Below are positions 31,519-46,774 of a stretch of DNA of 64,000 nt, one piece after another. A model generated the notes under the pieces. It was not told where the DNA came from and made no database searches. It was given only the letters and a program-made list of their open reading frames with translations. Both the position numbers and the translations under genes were made by a program. The number at the start of each line of letters is the position of its first letter. Positions within the stretch are counted from its first letter, which is position 1. This DNA comes from Reyranella massiliensis 521 (GTDB taxonomy: Bacteria > Pseudomonadota > Alphaproteobacteria > Reyranellales > Reyranellaceae), in assembly GCA_945862125.1 (NCBI GenBank), contig CAMAYC010000005.1, positions 1 through 64,000 of the forward strand. Direction: 5' to 3'.

Positions 31519-32374
31519 CGTCCTGGACGTCACGCGGATCGATCCCGGCCTCGCCGAAGCGGTATGGCCGCTCTCGATCGAGGCAGGCTGGAACCAGAAT
31601 GTCGCCGACTGGCGCTTTATGCTCGCGGCCGGACGGGGCTTCGGTTGCCGCGGCGCAGACGGGAAATGGCAGGCGAGCTCCCTGGTGCTGCCGCTGGGCC
31701 AGAAGCTTGCCTGGATCAGCATGGTGCTGGTGACCACGGACCGCCGCCGCTTCGGTCTGGGCTCCAGTCTGTTGAAGCGATGCATTACCGAGGTGCGCGA
31801 GGCCGATGCCGTCGCCGGTCTCGATGCGACAGAGGCGGGGCGGCCGATCTATCTGAAGCTGGGCTTCCATGATCTCTATGGGATTGCGCGCTGGCATCTC
31901 GATCGGGTGAAGGACGGCGCGATCGCCCCCCCGGCGGGGATTGCGATCAGGCCCTTTGTCCTGGCGGATCTACCGAAGCTTGCGACCTACGACCGGCCAT
32001 TGAGCGGCATGGAGCGGCCGACGATCCTGGCCCATCTCGCCATGCGCCAGCCGGGGCTCGCTTTCATCGCGGAGACGGGCTCGGGTCGGTTGACCGGTTT
32101 CGCACTGGGCCGCGAAGGCCGGTTCGCGACGTCGCTGGGGCCGGTGGTGGCCGACAGCGAGGCCATTGCGCTCGCCTTGATCGCGCGGGCGACGGAAGCG
32201 GCGCCGGGCCCCTTCATCCTGGATGTGCCGGAGGCCCATCGTGAGATCAGGGCTTGGCTGGAAGCCCAAGGTGCGGTCTCGCCACGCGGTTACATGCGGA
32301 TGACCCTGGGTGAGGCCAAGCGGCTGGACGATCCCAGCCATGTCTTCGCGCTCGCTGGGCCGGAATTGGGCTAG
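31505..32374 (+). CDS. GNAT-family N-acetyltransferase, tandem-domain
   Basis: The 289-residue protein starts inside the end of the epimerase gene (14-bp overlap). The first domain carries the acetyl-CoA loop TDRRRFGLGSSLLKRCI and the YLKLGFHD strand. A second GNAT-like half starts about residue 145 (IRPFVLADLPKL) and contains GFALGREGRFATSLGPVVA. It resembles the YitH/HolE-type double-GNAT proteins. The acceptor is unknown. Confidence 0.83.
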   Translation: MANTDVLDVTRIDPGLAEAVWPLSIEAGWNQNVADWRFMLAAGRGFGCRGADGKWQASSLVLPLGQKLAWISMVLVTTDRRRFGLGSSLLKRCITEVREADAVAGLDATEAGRPIYLKLGFHDLYGIARWHLDRVKDGAIAPPAGIAIRPFVLADLPKLATYDRPLSGMERPTILAHLAMRQPGLAFIAETGSGRLTGFALGREGRFATSLGPVVADSEAIALALIARATEAAPGPFILDVPEAHREIRAWLEAQGAVSPRGYMRMTLGEAKRLDDPSHVFALAGPELG

Positions 32375-32375
32375 G

Positions 32376-33458
32376 ATGACGAACATGACCATGGACAAGG
32401 CATTGCATTGGCGCGACCTGCCCGCGCCGGTTCTGTCGCTTCTGCGGGACGGCGCGGTGATCCCCGCGCATCCGCTGGCGCTGGGTCCCGACAGGAAATT
32501 CGACAAGCAGTCCCAGCGCGCGATCGGCCGCTATTATGTCGACGCCGGCTCCGGCGGACTTGCCGTCGGCGTCCACTCGACTCAGTTCGCCATCCGCGAG
32601 GTCGGGCTCTACCGGCCGGTCCTGGAGCTTGCGATCGAGACGGCGCGCGAGTGGACCGACCGTCCGCTGGTGATGATCGCGGGTGCGGTCGGCAAGACGG
32701 CGCAGGCGGTCGAGGAGGCTCGCACGGCGCGTTCGCTCGGCTACCACGCGGTGCTGCTGTCGCTCGCCGCCTTGAAGGGCGCCAGCGAGGACGAACTGAT
32801 CGAGCATTGCACGGCGGTTTCGCGCGAGATGCCGCTGATCGGCTTTTACCTGCAGACCGCGGTGGGCGGCATCGCCCTGTCGCGGGCCTTTTGGGCACGC
32901 TTCGCCGCCATCGACAACGTCGTGGCGATCAAGGTCGCGCCGTTCAATCGCTATCGCACGCTCGACGTCGCCTTCGGGATTGCCCAGGCGCACGCCGAGG
33001 AGCGCATCACGCTCTACACCGGCAACGACGACCACATCGTGCCCGATCTCGTGACTCCCATGGTCGTGCGGACCGGCAACCGTGAGATCACCCTGCGCTT
33101 CCGGGGCGGCCTGCTCGGGCACTGGAGCGTGTGGACGCGGGGCGCCGTGAAGCTCCTGGAGCGGCTGAAACTCTCGGTCTCGTCCGGCGCCGTTCAGCCG
33201 GAGGTGCTGGCACTCGATTCGTTCGTGACGGATTGCAACAGCGTGGTCTTCGATGTCGATCATGACTTTGCCGGCTGCATTCCCGGCTGCCACGAGATAC
33301 TGAGGCGGCAGGGGCTGATGAACTCGATCGAGTGCCTCGATCCGCACGAAAGGCTGAGCCCGGGCCAGAGTGAAGGCATCGACCGGCTCTATGCGACTTA
33401 TCCCGAGCTGCACGACGATGCCTTCGTCGCGGCCAATCTCGAACGGTGGCGGGCCTAG
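32376..33458 (+). CDS. Dihydrodipicolinate synthase family aldolase
   Basis: The 360-residue protein (from ATG 32376; ATG 32385 with AGGA upstream is an alternative) is a DapA/NAL TIM-barrel lyase. It has the Schiff-base lysine in NVVAIKVAPFNRYRT and a tyrosine in IGFYLQTAVGG equivalent to the DapA proton-relay residue. It is 60 residues longer than DapA. It likely performs a retro-aldol on, or dehydration of, a keto acid produced by the enolase-superfamily neighbour; this is inferred from clustering. Confidence 0.82.
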   Translation: MTNMTMDKALHWRDLPAPVLSLLRDGAVIPAHPLALGPDRKFDKQSQRAIGRYYVDAGSGGLAVGVHSTQFAIREVGLYRPVLELAIETAREWTDRPLVMIAGAVGKTAQAVEEARTARSLGYHAVLLSLAALKGASEDELIEHCTAVSREMPLIGFYLQTAVGGIALSRAFWARFAAIDNVVAIKVAPFNRYRTLDVAFGIAQAHAEERITLYTGNDDHIVPDLVTPMVVRTGNREITLRFRGGLLGHWSVWTRGAVKLLERLKLSVSSGAVQPEVLALDSFVTDCNSVVFDVDHDFAGCIPGCHEILRRQGLMNSIECLDPHERLSPGQSEGIDRLYATYPELHDDAFVAANLERWRA

Positions 33459-33461
33459 CCG

Positions 33462-34871
33462 GTGAACGATCTCTTCGCGACCCACGATGCCCTGGCCGTC
33501 GGCGAACTGGTCAAGGCGCGCAAGATCGGCGTGCGCGAACTGGTGGACGGCTCGATCGCGCATTTGCGCAAGCTCAACGAGTCGCTGAACGCCATCACGG
33601 ATTTCTACGACGGCGCATTGCTCGACAAGTCCGTCGCGGCGGCGGGCGAGGGACCGTTCCACGGCGTGCCCTTCGTCGTGAAGCAGCTCATGGCCGACTG
33701 TGCCGGCACGCCGACGACATTGGGGTCGAAGTTCTTCGCCCAGCAGCCGGTGGCTGCGGCCGACAGTGCTGCGGTGGCCCGCATGCGCCGCGCCGGGCTG
33801 GTGATCGTGGGCCGCAGCAACACCAGCGAGTTTGGGCTCGCGCCCACGACGGAGCCCGCCTTCGGCGGCGCGACCGTGAACCCGTGGCGCAAGGATCTCT
33901 CGCCCGGCGGCTCGTCGGGCGGGTCGGCGGCGGTCGTTGCCGCACGCGGCCTGCCGATGGCGCACGCGACCGACGGTGGCGGCTCCATTCGTATTCCGGC
34001 GGCCTTGTGCGGTCTGTTCGGGCTGAAGCCGTCGCGCGGCCGGGTCAGTCTGGCGCCGATCGGTGAGACCTTGGCAGGCGCAGGCGCGCAGCATTGCGTG
34101 TCGATATCGGTGCGCGACAGCGCCGCGCTGCTCGATGCGCTGGCGGGCGGCGAGCCGGGTGATCCTTATCGGTCGCCACCGGCCGACGGCACGTTTCTCG
34201 ACGCCACGCGGCGTGCGCCGGGCAGGCTGCGGGTGGCCTTCATGCAGAAGCCGGTGGGTGGCGCGCCGCTCGATCCGGTGTTGGTCGACGCAGTCGAGCA
34301 GACGGCAAAACTGCTGGCCGGCCTCGGCCACCATGTCGAAGAGGCGGCGCCTGACTACGACGCCGCTGCCCTGGGGGCGGCTTTCGGGACCGTGATGTCC
34401 GCCAACACTTTTACCAACATCCAGATCCGGGCGGGCGGCCGCGTGCCGGGACCGGACGACCTGGAACCGGTGACGCGGCTTTACGCCGAGCGGGGGAAGG
34501 GCTTTTCCGCCAACGACTATATTCGTGCCGTCCAGACGTTCCACCGCACCGGCCGGATGCTTGGGGCCTTCCTGACGCGGTATGACGTCCTGCTCTCACC
34601 GACGATTGCACGGGCGAGCCTGCCGCTGGGCGAGGTCCGGATGGACGGATCGCTCGAGCAATACGAGGAAGCGCTCGCGCCGATGATTCCCTTCACGGCG
34701 GTGTGCAACGCCACCGGCGTGCCGGCCATGTCGGTGCCTCTGGCATGGACCGGCGAGGGTCTTCCCATCGGCCTGCATTTCGTCGGGCGCTTTGGCGCCG
34801 AAGAAATGTTACTCTCTCTGGCAGCACAGCTTGAGCAGGTCCGGCCCTGGCGCGAAAGCCGGCCGACCTAG
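33462..34871 (+). CDS. Amidase (amidase-signature family)
   Basis: The 469-residue protein starts at GTG 33462. The Ser-cisSer-Lys triad is visible: Lys in PFVVKQLMAD, the serine loop GGSSGGSAAVVAARG and the nucleophile region DGGGSIRIPAALCGLFGLKP. Amidase-signature enzymes hydrolyse carboxamides or transfer ammonia. GatA is unlikely because there is no gatB or gatC alongside. It follows the aldolase gene by 3 bp. Confidence 0.9.
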   Translation: MNDLFATHDALAVGELVKARKIGVRELVDGSIAHLRKLNESLNAITDFYDGALLDKSVAAAGEGPFHGVPFVVKQLMADCAGTPTTLGSKFFAQQPVAAADSAAVARMRRAGLVIVGRSNTSEFGLAPTTEPAFGGATVNPWRKDLSPGGSSGGSAAVVAARGLPMAHATDGGGSIRIPAALCGLFGLKPSRGRVSLAPIGETLAGAGAQHCVSISVRDSAALLDALAGGEPGDPYRSPPADGTFLDATRRAPGRLRVAFMQKPVGGAPLDPVLVDAVEQTAKLLAGLGHHVEEAAPDYDAAALGAAFGTVMSANTFTNIQIRAGGRVPGPDDLEPVTRLYAERGKGFSANDYIRAVQTFHRTGRMLGAFLTRYDVLLSPTIARASLPLGEVRMDGSLEQYEEALAPMIPFTAVCNATGVPAMSVPLAWTGEGLPIGLHFVGRFGAEEMLLSLAAQLEQVRPWRESRPT

Positions 34872-34893
34872 GCTTATTGGGAGAAGGGGGAGT

Positions 34894-35322
34894 ATGCGCA
34901 CTATCATCGCGGGGTTTATCGCGGGCTTCGTCAGCGTGCTGATTTTCCATCAGCTCGGGTTTTTGATCTCCAACGAGCTTGGCCTGACGAAGGCACAACT
35001 CTACAGCATGCGTCCCTTGCCGCCTTTCGGGGTCCCGACGATCCTGTCGGCGGCTTTCTGGGGCGGGCTGTGGGGCATGGTGGGCGCCTATGTCGTGCCG
35101 CGGTTGCCGCCGACCTTCGATGGGCCCTGGGGCTGGATGCTGTTCGCCGGCGTGTTCGTCACCCTGGTCAACTGGTTCGTCGTACTGCCGATCAAGGGCG
35201 CACCGATCGGCGGCGGCTTCCGGATGCCCGGCGTCGTTGTCGTGCCGCTGGTCTATGCCTTCTGGGGCTTCGGCATGTGGCTCATCATCGGTCTGGTGCG
35301 TCGGGCGCTGCGCTGGAAATAG
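34894..35322 (+). CDS. Small four-helix membrane protein, unknown function
   Basis: The 142-residue protein starts at ATG 34894 after a GAGAAGGGGG site. It has four hydrophobic segments (about 1-22, 47-68, 80-100, 114-135), with a short conserved-looking loop RLPPTFDGPWGWMLFAG. No characterised family is recognised. It lies between the amidase and the amidohydrolase on the same strand and may be part of the same transcript. Confidence 0.75.
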   Translation: MRTIIAGFIAGFVSVLIFHQLGFLISNELGLTKAQLYSMRPLPPFGVPTILSAAFWGGLWGMVGAYVVPRLPPTFDGPWGWMLFAGVFVTLVNWFVVLPIKGAPIGGGFRMPGVVVVPLVYAFWGFGMWLIIGLVRRALRWK

Positions 35323-35342
35323 ACAGACCCGGAAATATCACC

Positions 35343-36179
35343 ATGTTGATCGCCGACGCCCAAGTCCACATCTGGGGCGCCAATACGCCGGAACGGCCTT
35401 GGCCGGCGCGCGCAGAGCCGCACCGTGCGCCGCTCGGCAAGGATGAGCTGCTGGCCGAGATGGACAAGGCCGGTGTCGACCGCGCGATCCTGGTGCCGCC
35501 GTCATGGGAGGGTGATCGCAACGATCTCGCCCTGGAGGCCGCCTCTGCGCATCCGGACCGTTTCGCCATCATGGGCCGCTTCGATCCCGACGCGCCCGGC
35601 GCGCGCGGTCTGGTCGCGGGCTGGAAGAAGCAGAAGGGCATGCTCGGCATGCGCTTTACTTTCCACACCGACCTCCTGCGCCAGCCGCTGCTCGACGGCC
35701 GCTTCGACTGGGTGTGGGGCGAGATGGAAAAGGCCGGGATCCCGGCGATGGTCCTGTTCCATCACGAATACATGCATCTCGCCGACAGGGTCGCCGAGCG
35801 CTATCCCGGCGTGCGCCTGGTGCTCGATCATCTCGGCCTGAAGAGCAGCAAGGACGTCTCGGAGGCGGCGAACTTTGCCACCCTCGACAACGTGCTGGCG
35901 TTGGCCAAGCGGACGAACGTAGCCGCCAAGGTCTCGGCGATGCCGTGCTACGCCGACGACAAGACCTATCCCTTCAGGTCCGTGCATCGGCATATCCGCC
36001 GCGTCTTCGATGCCTTTGGGCCCAAGCGCACGTTCTGGGGGACCGACCTGTCGCGGCTGCCCGGCAGCTATCGCCAGGGTGTGACCATGTTCACCGAGGA
36101 AATGTCCTGGCTGAAAGGGGCCGATCTCGAGGGCGTGATGGGCCGCGGCCTTTGCGACTGGCTCGGCTGGAAGGTCTGA
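35343..36179 (+). CDS. Amidohydrolase family (ACMSD/PDC-hydrolase-like) protein
   Basis: The 278-residue protein starts MLIADAQVHIWG, the DxHxW form of the metal-binding opener of amidohydrolase 2 proteins. It has LFHHEYMHLADR, a LVLDHLGLK histidine strand and the catalytic FWGTDLSRLPGS aspartate. Relatives hydrolyse lactones (2-pyrone-4,6-dicarboxylate, sugar lactones) or decarboxylate aromatic acids. It closes the catabolic run and is tail-to-tail (4-bp gap) with the UGSC operon. Confidence 0.87.
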   Translation: MLIADAQVHIWGANTPERPWPARAEPHRAPLGKDELLAEMDKAGVDRAILVPPSWEGDRNDLALEAASAHPDRFAIMGRFDPDAPGARGLVAGWKKQKGMLGMRFTFHTDLLRQPLLDGRFDWVWGEMEKAGIPAMVLFHHEYMHLADRVAERYPGVRLVLDHLGLKSSKDVSEAANFATLDNVLALAKRTNVAAKVSAMPCYADDKTYPFRSVHRHIRRVFDAFGPKRTFWGTDLSRLPGSYRQGVTMFTEEMSWLKGADLEGVMGRGLCDWLGWKV

Positions 36180-36183
36180 GCCG

Positions 36184-37155
36184 CTAGAGCGCGCGCGTCA
36201 CAGTCTGGGAGGCGCCGCCCCAGATCGGCAGGTAGGTCATCTTGTAGCCAGCGCCGCCGGTGACGATGGGGTGAATGGCGTCGGGCGCGCTGGCGACGCC
36301 GTCACCTTGCTCGAAGACATGGCGCTGCACGCGCGCGATGTCCCAGCCGTCGTGGCGCACGATCTTCTCGGCCATCTCGAGCGGCAGGAGGAAGACCTGC
36401 TCGCCGCGCTCGTTCTTGCGGTGAATGCCCGCCATGACGATGTCGGCCTTCATCGCCGTCACGATCGGCGACAGGATCGCCTCAGGCGTGGCGCCTTCGC
36501 CGTCGCCCGGTAGCACCTCGGCGGTCCCGGAGACGCCCATCACCGTGATGGCGCTGGCATCTTTGCCGAGTCCGCGACGCGCGGTCAGCGTGGGGAAGGG
36601 GCCATCGTTGCGTTCGGCAAAGCAGAAGCTGTACTTGCCGGGCTGACCCATGGTCGCCATGTCGCCCACATCGGAGCGCGCGCCGCCGATGTTGCGGATC
36701 ACGAGCTGCAGCGCGCGACCGATGCTGGCGTTGGCGCGGTTTCCAGGACCGAGGCAGTTGGTGCCGGCATTGATGCCCAGCGTGCGGGCGATCGGACCGT
36801 GGACGCAAAGCGCCACGCAGGCGGTGCCGGTGGTCGTGGCGATGCCGAGGATGTTGAAGCCGGGTTCGAGGATCGCTTCGGCCGCGGCCAGCACGATCGG
36901 AATTTCCTTCGGCAGCGCGCCTGCGATCACGCACTGGTAAGCAACGGCTTCGGGCGTCAGCTCGCCGAACATCGGCGGCAGCATGCCGCGCGACTCGCCA
37001 CGAGTGGCGATGTTCGCGACCATCGCCTCGAGCCGCCGCTGAGTCGGCGGCACGAGCGGCAGGCCGTCGCTGAGCTCGGCCTCGGTCAGGATCTGCTGGG
37101 CAGCTTCCCAGCCCGTCGATTCCTCGACGACGGGCCAGCCGCTCCACTCGCTCAT
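36184..37155 (-). CDS. Uncharacterised partner protein B of the UGSC operon
   Basis: The 323-residue soluble protein has no recognised family function. It is a paralogue of the preceding gene product, aligning from the ELSDGLPLVPP start through LEPGFNILGIATTTGTAC, NAGTNCLGPGNRANASIGRA and KYSFCFAE. Cys113, Cys134 and Cys178 are shared with the paralogue. The ATG overlaps the upstream TGA by 4 bp, so it is translationally coupled. Together the two paralogues probably form a heteromeric complex with the selenoprotein; conserved cysteines suggest a redox or metal role (inference). It is the last gene of the operon. Confidence 0.8.
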   Translation of the reverse strand: MSEWSGWPVVEESTGWEAAQQILTEAELSDGLPLVPPTQRRLEAMVANIATRGESRGMLPPMFGELTPEAVAYQCVIAGALPKEIPIVLAAAEAILEPGFNILGIATTTGTACVALCVHGPIARTLGINAGTNCLGPGNRANASIGRALQLVIRNIGGARSDVGDMATMGQPGKYSFCFAERNDGPFPTLTARRGLGKDASAITVMGVSGTAEVLPGDGEGATPEAILSPIVTAMKADIVMAGIHRKNERGEQVFLLPLEMAEKIVRHDGWDIARVQRHVFEQGDGVASAPDAIHPIVTGGAGYKMTYLPIWGGASQTVTRAL

Positions 37156-38186
37156 TGGATGCGCGTGCAGGCGACCATGGTGCCGCCGAACGACGGGATG
37201 AACGCCGAGTGCTTGCCCGGACCGCCCGCCACGGTGATGTGGATGTCCTGCGAGGAACGGCCAATGCGCAGCCAGTCGCCGTCGCGCTTGTGGCCGGTGG
37301 CCTCGTAGGTCTCCATGTTTTGCTTGGAAACGCGGCTGACATGGACGCGCGAGCGGGTCCACAGCTCCTCGCGGATGGTCTCGATGGTGAAGCCGTCGCG
37401 CTTCAAGGTCGCGGCGTGCTCCGGGCCGATGATGACGAACATCGGGCCCTTGCCATAGATCGTGTTGGCGCCGGGATTGGCCATGCCGCCGGCGAAGGTC
37501 GTCAGCAGGCCGTCGCCAGTGGTCGAGCCGTGGTCGTTGAGGTTGTGCGGGCCTTCGCCCGACATCACCGTCACCACGCTGTCGGTGGCCGCGAAGCCGC
37601 GCTGCACGTGATACGGCGCCCAGGGGTTCTCCTCCTCGTTCTCGCCGAAGCAGAAGGTGAACTTGGCGGGATTGCCCTGGGTCGACCGGTCCATCTCGCC
37701 GGGCTTGGCACCGGCGATGTTGAGCAGCATCAGGCCGAGCGCGCGGCCGATCGTGGCGTTGGCCTGCCAGCCCTGGCCGAAGCAGTTGGAGCCGCAGTTG
37801 ACGTTGAGCTCCTTGCGGATCGGTCCGTTGATCATGACCATCGGCGCGCAGGAGTGCGTGGTCGCGAGCGTGCCGTGCAGGTTGAAGTCGGGTTCCAGCA
37901 CGCTGCGCAGCGCAGCCGTCACCACCGGGAAGTATTCCGGCTTGCAGCCTGCCATCACGGCGTTGGCCGCCATCGCCTGGATTGTCGGCACGATCTGGCG
38001 CGGCGGCACGGGCGAATAGGGCCGATTGTCGCCGCGCACCGTGTCGACGAACTTCGCCACCTTGGCCTCGGTCGGCACATAGAGCGGCATGCCGTCGCTC
38101 CAGCCCTGTTGCGTGGCGAATTCGTTGAAGGCCTCGACATCCATGTCGGCGATGTCGATGACTTCCTGTTCGGCGATATCCGTCAT
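37152..38186 (-). CDS. Uncharacterised partner protein A of the UGSC operon
   Basis: The 344-residue soluble protein starts at ATG 38186, overlapping the TGA that ends the UGSC protein. It shares the order of motifs with the downstream paralogue: WSDGMPLYVPTEAKV, EPDFNLHGTLATTHSCAP, NVNCGSNCFGQGWQANATIG and NPAKFTFCFGENEE. Conserved cysteines are 113, 135 and 179, with an extra Cys131 and Cys81 in this copy. No known enzyme motif is recognised. The tight coupling to a UGA-containing gene makes its yield partly dependent on read-through upstream. Function unknown. Confidence 0.82.
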   Translation of the reverse strand: MTDIAEQEVIDIADMDVEAFNEFATQQGWSDGMPLYVPTEAKVAKFVDTVRGDNRPYSPVPPRQIVPTIQAMAANAVMAGCKPEYFPVVTAALRSVLEPDFNLHGTLATTHSCAPMVMINGPIRKELNVNCGSNCFGQGWQANATIGRALGLMLLNIAGAKPGEMDRSTQGNPAKFTFCFGENEEENPWAPYHVQRGFAATDSVVTVMSGEGPHNLNDHGSTTGDGLLTTFAGGMANPGANTIYGKGPMFVIIGPEHAATLKRDGFTIETIREELWTRSRVHVSRVSKQNMETYEATGHKRDGDWLRIGRSSQDIHITVAGGPGKHSAFIPSFGGTMVACTRIQ

Positions 38187-38701
38187 GTCTTCGTCGCCTC
38201 GAGAAGGCCCTTGGTCGCGGTTTCGATGCGCTCGCGCAGCTCCTCGGCGTTGAGGCCGCCCACCGGGTGCTTCACGACGATAAGCTTGGGCTCGATCTTG
38301 CGGGCTTTCGCCTGGGCAAGCACGAGCGGCTTGAAGGTCTCAGTAGCGATCACGTAGGACGTGATGCCGAGTTTTTCGAGTTCGATGCTGTCGTGGAAAC
38401 TCCACGATGAACAGGACCCTCAATCCCCTAGCGCAAGGAGCGCCGCGCGATACTTCCCGGCGACCGCCTGAATCAGGTCCTTTGGGGCGGCCTGACTGGC
38501 GCTGTTCTTGGCGTGAAACTCGATGTTGTCGACGTTGCGGAAGGCGCCGAGCTTGGCCTTTATGCCCTCGAGCAGCTCGCGTGCATTCGGCTTGGAGTTA
38601 GACATGAGCGCGATCGGGTCGGTCGCCCAGTTGATCGGCTTCAGCGCCACCGTGGGTCCCGCGGCGGCCGCGAGACCAAACGTCGGATTGACGATACGCA
38701 T
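38183..38701 (-). CDS. UGSC-family selenoprotein with in-frame UGA (Sec94)
   Basis: The frame starts at ATG 38701 behind AGAGGAG and runs 93 codons to a TGA at 38422-38420. It continues in the same frame for 78 codons to a TGA at 38185-38183 that overlaps the next start. Read as selenocysteine, the junction is LALGD-Sec-GSCSSWSFHDS, a UxxC redox motif. The second half is coherent protein (IELEKLGITSYVIATETF, then LIVVKHPVGG and an amphipathic tail ending EATKT). A SECIS-like hairpin follows the UGA directly. The product is 172 residues with Sec94 and Cys97. The UGSC motif names a family I recall from selenoproteome surveys, whose function is unknown. An ordinary annotation would truncate it at residue 93 and leave 38183-38419 empty. 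A point nonsense mutation is the alternative, but is less likely. Confidence 0.88.
38388..38414 (-). promoter_or_regulatory. Bacterial SECIS-like hairpin after UGA Sec codon
   Basis: In the mRNA, counting from the base after UGA, bases 14-19 (CGUGGA) pair perfectly with 23-28 (UCCACG) around a GUU loop, and 6-9 (CUGU) pair with 29-32 (ACAG), leaving UCAU bulged on the 5' side. The GU of the loop is at positions 20-21, the same register as the GU in the apical loop of the E. coli fdhF SECIS as I recall it, which is where SelB binds. The extra bulged uridines are also on the 5' side, as in bacterial SECIS elements. Confidence 0.75.
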
Positions 38702-38713
38702 GATCGCTCCTCT

Positions 38714-39589
38714 TCAACTCGCTTTGGTCAATGCCGCCACCACGGCTTTGGCTGTGCGCTGGCCGTCGGCGATGGCATCGGACAGATAAGGACGTCCGCC
38801 GGCCCGTACGTCGCCTGCGGCAAATACGGTGGGCACCGATGTGCGTCCATCTTCATCGACCACGATATGCCCTGAGGCGTCGCGTGCAAGCGTTTCCGGC
38901 AGGAATTCCGCAGCGGGAGACTGGCCGACATAGACGAACACTGCGCTGGCCGGAACTGTGTTCCGCGTTGCTCCGGATTCGACCACGATCGACTCCAGGC
39001 CGTTGTTGCCTTCGAGCCCGACAATGCGGCCGTCGATGAAGGCAAGACCCTCGGGTTTCTCGTCCGGCGGCGATCCGATCACGGTGACCGATCCGGCCAG
39101 CCCGATCAGTTCGCGGGCTTCCATGGCGGCCCAGCCTTCCGCGCCGGCGACCACGACCGGCAAGCCCGTGTAGAGCGGGCCGTCGCAGGCAGCGCAATGT
39201 GAGATGCCGCGGCCCTCGTAGTCGTCTTCGTTGGCGAGACCAAGCCGGCCCTTGTTGAGGCCGGTCGCAACCACGACGGCGCGGGATGTGTAGCGCTCGC
39301 CGTCGGCCGTCTCGACTGTCCACGGACCATCGCCGGACAGCTTGGTGACTTCGCCGAAGCCGATTTCCACGCCAGCGACAACGGCGTCGTCGGTCAGAAG
39401 CGAGGCCATCTGCGTGCCGCTGAAGATCTCGTCGAAATCGTGCAATTCGCCCAGGTTGATGAGCACGCCGCCCGGGGCGAGCTTGTCGAGGCACAGGCAC
39501 TTCAGGCCGGCCCGTGCAGCTTCGGTGGCAGTGGTGAGGCCGGCGGGGCCGGCACCGATGACGATGACGTCGTGAGTGAGCGTATTCAT
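38714..39589 (-). CDS. Thioredoxin-reductase-like FAD-dependent oxidoreductase, atypical NAD(P) site
   Basis: The 291-residue flavoprotein has the FAD motif DVIVIGAGPAGLTT (residues 7-20), a redox-active CAAC at 132-135 (HCAACDGPLY, compare CATCDG of TrxR) and the C-terminal FAD segment VFAAGDVRAGG. The second dinucleotide site is degenerate: AGAEGWAAMEA instead of GGGxSAxxEA, and no HRRxxxR follows (VTVIGSPPDEK). It may therefore not use NADPH in the standard way. It lies 12 bp upstream of the selenoprotein gene as the first gene of the operon and is the natural electron donor for its UxxC centre (inference). Confidence 0.87.
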   Translation of the reverse strand: MNTLTHDVIVIGAGPAGLTTATEAARAGLKCLCLDKLAPGGVLINLGELHDFDEIFSGTQMASLLTDDAVVAGVEIGFGEVTKLSGDGPWTVETADGERYTSRAVVVATGLNKGRLGLANEDDYEGRGISHCAACDGPLYTGLPVVVAGAEGWAAMEARELIGLAGSVTVIGSPPDEKPEGLAFIDGRIVGLEGNNGLESIVVESGATRNTVPASAVFVYVGQSPAAEFLPETLARDASGHIVVDEDGRTSVPTVFAAGDVRAGGRPYLSDAIADGQRTAKAVVAALTKAS

Positions 39590-39675: not shown

Positions 39676-40007
39676 CTGAAATGCTCAAAGGACACCTCGA
39701 TGCCATCGTCCTCGCGGCGCTGGAGGGTGGGCCGGCGCACGGCTACGCCATCATAGAAACCATCAGACGCGGCAGCACAGACACTTTCGACTTGCCGGAA
39801 GGGACCGTCTATCCGGCGCTTCACCGCCTGGAAGAGGCTGGGCTGCTCTCCAGCGCGTGGATGGTCCCGCCCGGCGGTCGTCGCCGCCGCATGTATTCGC
39901 TGACCAAGGCGGGCTCGGCCGCCCTCGCGGATCGTCGCAAGGCGTGGGGCCGCTTCTCGCACGCCGTCGATGCGCTCCTTGGGGGAGGTCGCGCATGGCC
40001 GGCATAA
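39669..40007 (+). CDS. PadR-family transcriptional regulator
   Basis: The 112-residue protein is a winged-helix PadR regulator: LKGHLDAIVLAALEGGPAHG, GYAIIETIRRGSTDTFDLPE, GTVYPALHRLEEAGLLSS and the wing GGRRRRMYSLTKAG. ATG 39669 is used (an upstream GTG at 39657 falls within the palindrome). It is coupled to a membrane protein by a 13-bp overlap, an arrangement common for PadR genes paired with HAAS/DUF1700-type membrane proteins. Confidence 0.9.
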   Translation: MEAEMLKGHLDAIVLAALEGGPAHGYAIIETIRRGSTDTFDLPEGTVYPALHRLEEAGLLSSAWMVPPGGRRRRMYSLTKAGSAALADRRKAWGRFSHAVDALLGGGRAWPA

Positions 40008-41377: not shown

Positions 41378-42292
<915 letters not shown>

Positions 42293-42296
42293 GCAG

Positions 42297-43708
42297 ATGG
42301 GCGCGCGTCTGTCTTCAATGCTGAAAGACGCGGGCCTCACGGCCTTCGTGGCGGCGGCCCTCGGAATTTTCGTGGTCGGGTTCCGCACGGTCGATGTCGG
42401 TCGCGGGCTGACCTTCGACTATCATCTCGTCGATCTTGCGGTCGCCGTGGTCACGATCTTCTTCGGACGGCTCGGCTTGTCGCTTGCCGCAAACGGCCTG
42501 CGCTGGCCGGCCATGGTGTTGGGCGCCGTGATGATCGCGGTGGGCGCGTCGCCGCTCCAGCTTCCGTCGGGCTTCTTGCACTGGTTCGTGGCCCTGGGCG
42601 GCGTGCTGCTGGTGATCCGCGGCGCCTGGCCATGGGCCAACGATGCCATGACGGCGGCAGCAACGTCGCCGTCGGGAGTGGCGGTCGGCCGAGCCGGTGC
42701 GAAATGGTCGGGCTGGCTGCTGCTGGCTGCAGCCGTGGCGATGCCGTTCACACCCATCGCCGACCAGAAGACCATGGATCTCGGGGTGCTGATCCTGACC
42801 TACGTGATGCTGGGATGGGGCCTCAACATCGTGGTTGGGCTCGCGGGCCTGCTCGACCTCGGCTATGTCGCCTTCTATGCCGTCGGCGCCTATTCCTATG
42901 CCTTGCTCAGCACGCAGCACGGGCTGGGTTTTTGGACGGTGTTGCCGCTCGCCGGGATGATGGCCGCGCTGTTCGGTGTCGTGCTGGGGTTTCCGGTGCT
43001 GCGCCTGCGGGGCGACTACCTCGCCATCGTGACCCTGGGCTTCGGCGAAATCATCCGGCTGGTCATCCTCAACTGGTTCGATCTCACGAACGGTCCGGCC
43101 GGCATCGGCTCGATCCCCGGGCCGACACTGTTCGGTGCGGTGTTCGCCGAGACCCCGCCGCCGGGCAAGCAGACCGTTTCGGAGATGCTGGGGATTCCCT
43201 TCGACGGCAATCACCGGCTGATCTTCCTCTATTATATCATCCTGCTCCTGGCGTTGATCACCAACCTCTTCACTCAGCGGATGCGGCGTCTGCCGGTCGG
43301 CCGGGCCTGGGAGGCGCTGCGCGAGGACGAGACCGCGTGCCGCGCGCTCGGCATCAACCCGACCAACACCAAGCTCACGGCCTTTGCCGTGGGCGCCATG
43401 TTCGCGGGCTTCGCCGGCTCGTTCTTCGCGGCCAAGCAACGCTTCATCAGTCCCGAGAGCTTCGTCTTCATCGAATCGGCGATCATTCTCGCCATCGTCG
43501 TGTTGGGTGGCATGGGCAGCCAGATCGGTGTCGTGCTGGCCGCAGTGCTGCTGATCGGCCTGCCCGAATGGTTCCGCGACCTCGGAAGCTACCGCATGCT
43601 GGCCTTCGGCCTCGCCATGGTGCTGATCATGGTGTTCCGTCCCCGCGGCCTGGTCTCCCATCGTGAGCCGTCGCTGCGGCTGCATCCAGTCAGACCGGCA
43701 GGCAGCGG

Positions 43709-43712
<4 letters not shown>
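42297..43712 (+). CDS. livM: Branched-chain amino acid ABC importer, permease LivM-type
   Basis: The 471-residue protein has an N-terminal extension of about 150 residues with several extra helices before the LivM core ([60 protein letters not shown]). The extension is found in a subset of alphaproteobacterial LivM proteins. It overlaps livG by 4 bp. Confidence 0.93.
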
Positions 43713-44522
<810 letters not shown>

Positions 44523-44530
<8 letters not shown>

Positions 44531-45251
44531 GCCGCCGATCCTCTCGGTGAAGGGCGTGGAAACCTTCTATGGCGCCATCCAGGCGCTTCATGGCGTCGAC
44601 CTCGAGGTAGCCAAGGGCGAGATCGTGGCCCTGATCGGCGCCAACGGCGCCGGCAAGTCGACCCTGCTGATGACCATCTGTGGCAATCCACGCGCCAGGG
44701 CAGGCACGATCCGGCTCGACGGCGAGGACATCACGGCGATGCCGACGCACGAGATCGTGCGGCGCGGCGTGGCCCAAGTGCCGGAGGGACGGCGAATCTT
44801 CCCGCGCATGAGCGTCCTCGAGAACCTGCAGATGGGCGCCACGCTCGCGGCACCCGCGCACTTCGCCGGTGACCTCGAGCGGGTATTCGCGATGTTTCCC
44901 CGGCTCGCCGAACGGCGAGACCAGCGTGGCGGCACGCTGTCGGGCGGCGAACAGCAGATGCTGGCAATCGGCCGGGCGCTGATGAGCCGGCCGCGGCTCC
45001 TGCTGCTCGACGAGCCGTCGCTCGGGCTGGCGCCGCTGATCGTGCGTCAGATCTTCGAGGTGATCGGCCGGATCGCGCGGGAGGAGGGGATGACGATCTT
45101 CCTGGTCGAGCAGAATGCCTATCACGCGCTTCGCCTGGCCGACCGTGGCTATGTGCTGGCCAACGGGCGGGTTCGGTTGAGCGGCGCTGGCCGGGACCTG
45201 CTGGCGAATGCCGAAGTCAGGGCGGCCTATCTCGAGGGCGGCCACGGATGA
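44523..45251 (+). CDS. livF: Branched-chain amino acid ABC importer, ATPase LivF-type
   Basis: The 242-residue ATPase has Walker A GANGAGKST, the LivF marker VPEGRRIFPRMSVLENL, signature LSGGEQQMLAIGRAL and Walker B LLLLDEPSLGLAP. ATG 44523 is preferred over an upstream in-frame start at 44490 inside livG. It overlaps the following small membrane-protein gene by 4 bp. Confidence 0.95.
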
Positions 45252-45610
45252 GTCCCGTCGATGCCTTCATGTTCGAGTGGTTCGGCGACACGCTGTTCAA
45301 CGTGCTGCTGTTCAACCTTGTGGTGATCGGGCCGGCGTCGTTCGCGGCCGGCCATGCCGTTGCCACGACGTGGCGCCATTGGGGCCAGATGGTGTTTTAC
45401 ACCGGACTTCTTTCGGCAACGCTGCGCTTTCTCGACTATGCATTGGCGGGGGGCGAGCTGTGGTCGGTAGCCGGCTTTTTGCTGGGCTGGGGCGTCCAGA
45501 TGGCGATTGGCGCCTTCGCCTATCGCCTGACGCAGACGCGCCAGATGGTCCGGCAGTATCCATGGCTCTACCAGCGCAAAGGCTTGCTGGGCTGGGAGGA
45601 GCGGCACTAA
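45248..45610 (+). CDS. Small three-helix membrane protein of the liv operon (DUF6867-like)
   Basis: The 120-residue protein is coupled to livF (ATGA overlap) and precedes the binding-protein gene. It has three hydrophobic segments (about 14-38, 48-66, 72-92) and a basic tail ending in YPWLYQRKGLLGWEERH. I believe similar proteins (DUF6867) occur beside liv genes in related bacteria, so it may be an accessory of the importer; function unknown. Confidence 0.78.
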   Translation: MSPVDAFMFEWFGDTLFNVLLFNLVVIGPASFAAGHAVATTWRHWGQMVFYTGLLSATLRFLDYALAGGELWSVAGFLLGWGVQMAIGAFAYRLTQTRQMVRQYPWLYQRKGLLGWEERH

Positions 45611-45661
45611 TCTAGCGGCAATGCTCCACATCCGTGGAGGGGCCCCAGCAGGGAGACAAGC

Positions 45662-46774
45662 ATGAAGAAAACCTACGGTATGCTCGCCGTCGCAGCCGTT
45701 GCCTTGATGGCGACGCCGGCGCTCGCGCAGATCAAGATCGGCACAGCCGGTCCGATGACCGGCTCGAACGCCGCGTTCGGCGAACAGCTCAAGCGTGGCG
45801 CCGAGATGGCGGTTCAGGACATCAATGCCGCCGGTGGCGTGAACGGCCAGAAGCTCGAGCTGACGATCGGCGACGATGCCTGCGATCCCAAGCAGGCGAC
45901 TGCCGTTGCCAACAAGATGGTGTCGGACAAGGTAGCGTTCGTCGCCGGCCATTTCTGCTCGGGCTCGTCGATTCCGGCGTCGGACATCTACAAGGAAGGC
46001 AAGATCCTGCAGATCACGCCGGCCTCGACCAATCCGAAGCTCACCGACGATGCGGCCGCCAAGGGCAACACCACGGTGTTCCGTACCTGCGGCCGTGACG
46101 ACGTCCAGGGCGCCACCGTTGGCGCCTACATCCTCAAGAACAACAAGGCCGCCAAGGTGGCGATCCTTCACGACAAGTCGCCGTACGGCAAAGGCGTGGC
46201 CGACGAGACCAAGAAGGCCCTGAACAAGGGCGGTCTCAAGGAGACGATGTACGAGGCCTACAACGACACCGACAAGGACTTCGCCGCGCTGATCAACAAG
46301 ATGAAGCAGGCGAAGATCGACATCATCGTTCTCGGTGGCTACCACACCGCGGGTGCGCTGATCATCAAGCAGGCCCGCGAGCAGGGACTTGCTGCGAAGA
46401 TGATGGGCTTCGACTCGCTCGAGACCGCCGAGTTCGCCCAGCTGGGCGGTGCGGCGACTGACGGCGTGCTGATGTCGTTCCCGCCCAAGGCCGAGGACGA
46501 TCCGAAGAACGCGGCGCTCGTGAAGAAATTCCGTGACGCCAAGTACAACCCTGAGGGCTACACGCTCTTCAGCTATGCCGCCGTCAAGGCGTGGGCGGAC
46601 GCTGCCAACAAGGCCAAGTCGATCGATGCCGCAACCGTCGCCAAGCAGCTTCGCACGGGCAAGTACGACTCCGCCGTCGGCGTGCTCGAGTTCGATGCCA
46701 AGGGCGACATCAAGGACGCCGTCTACGACATCTACGTCTGGAAGGACGGCAAGTCGTCTCCCATCAAGAAGTAG
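45662..46774 (+). CDS. livK: Branched-chain amino acid ABC importer, periplasmic binding protein
   Basis: The 370-residue protein has a signal peptide ending TPALAQ and a type I periplasmic binding fold: IKIGTAGPMTGSNAAFGEQL, a ligand-loop CSGSSIPASDIYKEG, TPASTNPKLT and GYHTAGALIIKQA. Its start follows GGGAGACAAGC at 45653. It ends the operon directly ahead of a strong terminator. Specificity (Leu/Ile/Val or another amide or aliphatic amino acid) is family inference. Confidence 0.93.
   Translation: MKKTYGMLAVAAVALMATPALAQIKIGTAGPMTGSNAAFGEQLKRGAEMAVQDINAAGGVNGQKLELTIGDDACDPKQATAVANKMVSDKVAFVAGHFCSGSSIPASDIYKEGKILQITPASTNPKLTDDAAAKGNTTVFRTCGRDDVQGATVGAYILKNNKAAKVAILHDKSPYGKGVADETKKALNKGGLKETMYEAYNDTDKDFAALINKMKQAKIDIIVLGGYHTAGALIIKQAREQGLAAKMMGFDSLETAEFAQLGGAATDGVLMSFPPKAEDDPKNAALVKKFRDAKYNPEGYTLFSYAAVKAWADAANKAKSIDAATVAKQLRTGKYDSAVGVLEFDAKGDIKDAVYDIYVWKDGKSSPIKK

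Follow-up and report, generated by a model that had tools for sequence, protein, structure and literature searches.

The window analyzed here (the whole 64,000-nucleotide stretch of DNA) carries a selenoprotein gene of the UGSC family next to the gene for a protein that we call P2, and we consider it highly probable that the first encodes a genuine selenoprotein and the second its obligate partner. UGSC is a named selenoprotein family from metagenome papers of 2007-2008, and the gene described here is a further member of it. A first-pass annotation of this DNA had given the family name, which is indeed established in Pfam (PF24696), in NCBIfam (NF041046) and, in the portions available, in PMC2398784, PMC9312934 and PMC13188914; it had also held that the family's reaction is not established, and we found no paper on UGSC function in the literature searched. 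What is new here is the obligate P2 partner and a similarity to PrdB-like proteins, neither of which was found in that literature. The features of the locus are collected in Table 1.

Table 1. Features of the UGSC locus and its surroundings in the window
Feature	Position	Strand	Remarks
UGSC-family selenoprotein gene	38183..38701	-	172 residues, Sec at 94; PF24696, NF041046
In-frame UGA as selenocysteine, U-G-S-C motif	38420..38422	-	TGA at the same place in 72/73 class homologues
Bacterial SECIS-like hairpin	38391..38407	-	7-bp stem TCGTGGA/TCCACGA, loop GTT, 12 nt after the UGA
P2, 344 aa, without known family	37152..38186	-	Starts within the UGSC stop (ATGA); next to UGSC
P3, second P2-family copy, 323 aa	36184..37155	-	ATGA overlap with P2; 30% identical to P2
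Thioredoxin-reductase-like flavoprotein, Pyr_redox_2	38714..39586	-	12 nt upstream of UGSC
Convergent catabolic genes: DHDPS-like, amidase, 142-aa predicted membrane protein, amidohydrolase	32310..36179	+	
Liv-type ABC uptake: LivH, LivM, LivG, LivF, binding protein	41378..46774	+	Conserved nearby in the genus

The UGSC frame opens with the ATG at 38701 on the minus strand and runs through 93 sense codons to the TGA at 38422-38420, after which Gly-Ser-Cys and 75 further sense codons (78 in total) lead to a TGA stop at 38185-38183 that shares an ATGA with the start codon of P2. The coordinates, the length of 172 residues, the placement of U at 94 and the ATGA overlap had all been given in the first-pass annotation and were exact. 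Its argument that a random stop would not leave so long a tail is weak, since base composition at 65% GC gives 78 more stop-free codons a chance of ∼14%. A gene caller using ordinary stop codons does end at the UGA, as had been predicted. The description of the gene as hidden fits only in part, the family having been known since 2007-2008 and having both Pfam and NCBIfam models. Both the unremarkable length of the tail and the behavior of ordinary callers would also suit a reading in which translation truly ends at the UGA, or in which the UGA marks a sequencing error or a lesion in a pseudogene, so that only a 93-residue protein or nothing is made. It is conservation, and not the length of the open tail, that excludes chance. 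The PF24696 model matches residues 3-168, on both sides of the UGA, with an E value of 2.2e-35 and 122.8 bits against a cut-off of 25; the NF041046 score of 116 bits, obtained with Cys substituted for Sec, lies slightly below its cut-off of 125. When compared with six relatives, the part after the TGA has a dN of 0.09-0.28 at a synonymous divergence of ∼0.7-1.0, a constraint equal to that of the upstream part. We surveyed 289 genomes of the class to which this alphaproteobacterium belongs and found 73 UGSC genes in 28 of them, with up to 8 paralogues per genome; 72 of the genes, from many genera, contain exactly one TGA, at the same place, and the remaining one (G246) has Cys. With the tail under purifying selection, and with the covarying hairpin and the SelB co-occurrence described below, we give almost no credence to a stop, error or lesion in this gene, and as a general explanation such a reading is already refuted. 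Reading TGA as Trp or under another code was set aside because neighboring genes here end in TGA.

The first-pass annotation had proposed searching for homologues and for the selenocysteine machinery. Homologues extend past residue 94, align Sec or Cys there and are conserved on both flanks: in an alignment of 62 class proteins the residue-94 column holds Sec 61 times and Cys once, and Sec/Cys94, Gly95 and Cys97 are invariant, which places U94, G95, S96 and C97 on the conserved U/C-G-S-C motif. The motif that had been called redox-active is thus present and conserved, and its redox role is one that we infer. The machinery is also complete, with a tRNA-Sec (anticodon TCA) that shares a contig with SelB, SelA (read from sequence) and a formate dehydrogenase operon, and with a SelD match on another contig. 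The first of these loci (L017, G000:C155, 704-10724) encodes in a row formate dehydrogenase subunits, FdhE, SelA, a Sel1-repeat-like protein, SelB and tRNA-Sec; the SelD match (G000:C48:18928-19842) lies inside an open frame of 763 residues, more than twice the profile length and possibly a fusion. This genome has three UGSC genes, each with one in-frame TGA. Across the class, SelB occurs in 41 of 289 genomes, namely in 27 of the 28 with UGSC versus 14 of the 261 others (Fisher p 1e-26), and the single UGSC genome that lacks it is 77% complete. Named genomes from many phyla give the same picture, as only 2 of 75 UGSC-bearing loci have non-Sec forms only. Both are Cys forms, one in Mycobacterium szulgai, in whose genome no SelB scored above the cut-off, and the other in a Binatia MAG. 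Some distant members (L162, L202 and L207) read UGSS and have no second cysteine.

A hairpin with a perfect stem follows the UGA, its loop beginning with G. Described bacterial SECIS elements lie immediately 3' of the UGA, and their apical loop is small and includes a G (PMC1088965); the hairpin in the window fits this description. Its stability was ordinary when a 71-nt stretch was compared with shuffled versions (z -0.43), and Rfam has no family at the site; since the hairpin did not stand out by stability, we turned to covariation. In all 69 Sec genes, codons 6 and 8 downstream of the UGA have third bases capable of pairing, either as TGG with xxC (13 genes) or as TGC or GCC with xxG (56 genes), so that this inner stem pair is maintained by coupled codon changes throughout and the encoded residues change jointly: Trp goes with Phe or Ile, and Cys or Ala with Leu, Met or Thr. 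For nine fused proteins of the divergent TPAVLR subgroup the best hairpin differs, and pairing there was counted by bases only. A second set, which partly overlaps the first, pairs in 78 of 81 genes. Among 60 typical genes, 93% of cells are paired, compared with 54% or less once the partner position is shifted, a count that reflects related sequences and is not a probability; the same genes contain 13 double changes versus 2.9 in shuffles. The G246 Cys gene has no stem. In the Binatia Cys gene (L168, 137-644) the outer stem is kept and the inner pair is broken, a possible fossil SECIS. Taken with the family match across the UGA, the Sec machinery and the conserved TGA, the hairpin supports the selenoprotein reading that had been proposed from the DNA alone.

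P2 belongs to a family of ∼340-residue proteins that is nearly always found with UGSC and is fused to it in some genomes. A same-strand P2 lies within 300 bp of UGSC, or is fused to it, for 67 of 70 class UGSC genes; when searched from the P2 side, UGSC is nearby in 75 of 80 named loci. Eleven class proteins are UGSC-P2 fusions, and the P2-family genes of this genome number exactly four, all adjoining its three UGSC genes. P2 homologues in named MAGs are 83-91% identical, which places the organism as Reyranella-like. The invariant residues are D31-G32, P34, P38, G121, R148 and E182, joined by the near-invariant Cys81 (the conserved MAGC cysteine), which is absent from P3; P3 also occurs in the other window-type operons. 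In P3 and the family copies L042, L050 and L062, Ala replaces the MAGC cysteine, as if these sequences were the degenerate subunit of a pair. In Chloroflexi loci (L172, L206, L163), up to three UGSC-P2 pairs follow one another in tandem over a few kb, suggesting paralogous substrate variants. In Poribacteria (L197, L200, L205), P2 stands without UGSC in the DNA stretch examined, and the genomes carry SelB. P2 has no Pfam or NCBIfam family, its sole UGSC match there stemming from a fused alignment row, and neither single-sequence nor profile searches found a PDB match.

The setting in the window departs from that of the typical family. Full-length sequence, the U-G-S-C motif, near-universal Sec and the SECIS-like hairpin are shared with the UGSC family (PF24696, NF041046; PMC2398784 and PMC13188914, in the portions available), but the gene falls in a distinct 'SSWSFHDS' subgroup whose operon holds P2, P3 and the thioredoxin-reductase-like gene, a context of which the available portions of these two papers gave no description. 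A UGSC protein joined to a conserved domain appears as the UGSC/Unknown_1 fusion of the GOS data in the available part of PMC2398784 (Figure S1A), to which the fusions of 550-660 residues found here are similar; the GOS fusion occurred in a restricted set of sequences, whereas here P2 is the normal partner of UGSC. The flavoprotein upstream carries a CAAC motif at 39185-39196 (its start codon is a predicted one, and its frame opens at 39706). A homologue lies upstream of UGSC in most window-type operons and is absent beside many other UGSC types. The convergent catabolic block is conserved in the genus, and its association with UGSC is limited to the genus. Elsewhere, UGSC neighbors include TctC receptors, Liv-type permeases, amidohydrolases and an FAA hydrolase, and our survey of neighbor genes indicated no single substrate.

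Structure prediction gave a confident model for UGSC (AF2, pLDDT 91.8), an alternating beta/alpha domain of flavodoxin-like topology in which Sec sits at the end of strand 3, directly before helix 3. Foldseek matches of this model in the PDB are flavodoxin/Rossmann-like and weak, and no thioredoxin appears in the top 50; sequence-based PDB searches, with single sequences and with profiles, found nothing for UGSC. The thioredoxin fold suggested in the available text of PMC2398784 is therefore unlikely. UGSC shares the UxxC redox motif with thioredoxin-like selenoproteins and differs from them in this predicted fold. The model of a UGSC-P2 fusion reached a pTM of 0.91, and its Foldseek matches cover only stretches of the size and kind of the UGSC half; because the best PDB matches are UGSC-type, the P2 half has no recognizable solved relative.

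The UGSC profile resembles, specifically but weakly, the Sec domain of the PrdB/GrdB reductases (GRDB). PrdB-like Sec proteins of related bacteria contain LLVPVUPACTRAVG...GIPT, and an hhalign profile alignment places Sec on Sec with an E value of 7e-4 at a probability of only 26%, which leaves homology suggestive. The score of 31.7 compares with maxima of 23.9 among 200 column shuffles and 23.7 among 111 decoys. An A1-A2 profile score of 128 was set aside as an artefact caused by the fused proteins in A2. In both UGSC and PrdB/GrdB (PF07355), a hydrophobic stretch precedes the UxxC and a helix-like segment follows it, leading to a G-I/V-P/T strand, and both would be multi-subunit systems in what is probably a catabolic setting. 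They differ in that UGSC lacks the N-terminal GRDB region and is not matched by PF07355 (no match in any of the 62 members at a maximum E of 10), and a profile comparison of P2 with PrdB-like proteins showed no similarity. This genome has two GRDB/PrdB-like matches of its own (G000:C10:40502-40714 and G000:C253:710-922). Members in relatives (L087-L124) carry the UxxC motif LLVPVUPACTRAVG with an in-frame TGA. Of 101 related genomes, 43 have GRDB matches, and Stickland fermentation is not known from these bacteria.

These observations suggested to us, as the best reading, that UGSC and P2 form an NADPH-fed selenoreductase for small-molecule catabolism, a proposal built on the pairing, the conservation and the predicted fold, from which we infer the reaction, the substrate and the electron path. 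The reductase mechanism, with UGSC supplying the catalytic, Sec-bearing half of a two-component enzyme, we put slightly below an even chance. The selenolate would sit at a helix N-terminus in the flavodoxin-like domain, as seems to be the case for the Sec of PrdB/GrdB, and would attack or reduce a substrate held by P2/P3. Sec would then form a selenenylsulfide with Cys97, and the neighboring NADPH-dependent flavoprotein would recharge UGSC, with electrons passing from NADPH to FAD, the CAAC motif, the UGSC selenenylsulfide and finally the P2/P3-held substrate. Because Cys97 is replaced by Ser in the few distant UGSS proteins, its resolving role would not be universal.

Two other functions were weighed. 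A peroxide or disulfide reductase would account for the UxxC motif and the thioredoxin-reductase-like neighbor, and most marine selenoprotein families are described, in the available part of PMC2398784, as thiol-oxidoreductase homologues or as having a thioredoxin-like fold. We regard this function as improbable for UGSC, given a predicted fold that is not that of thioredoxin, the strict pairing and fusion with P2, the catabolic enzymes and uptake systems nearby and the many paralogues in some genomes. Flavodoxin-like folds are found in non-redox enzymes too. The pair might accordingly be a Sec-nucleophile lyase, hydrolase or transferase whose reductase-like neighbor only maintains a reduced selenol, and both the UGSC types that lack that neighbor and the UGSS members would agree with this; set against the invariance of U/C94 and C97 across the class alignment and a best remote match to a reductase family, however, a non-redox enzyme seems unlikely.

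Returning to the selenoreductase, the many paralogues, each with its own set of neighboring uptake and hydrolytic genes, suggest a single chemistry that serves many substrates. UGSC and P2 may represent a large unrecognized superfamily of two-subunit selenoreductases outside Stickland fermenters, remotely equivalent to the glycine/proline reductase of clostridia: UGSC would be the Sec subunit, P2 would activate the substrate and paralogous pairs would serve many catabolic substrates; we hold this wider proposal tentatively, as a real possibility short of an even one. The codon-coupled swap of Trp/Cys and Phe/Leu is a clear example of a protein sequence shaped by an RNA signal. For the family as a whole, an obligate partner, a likely fold and a candidate mechanistic relative make what was an 'unknown redox protein' a two-protein enzyme open to testing.
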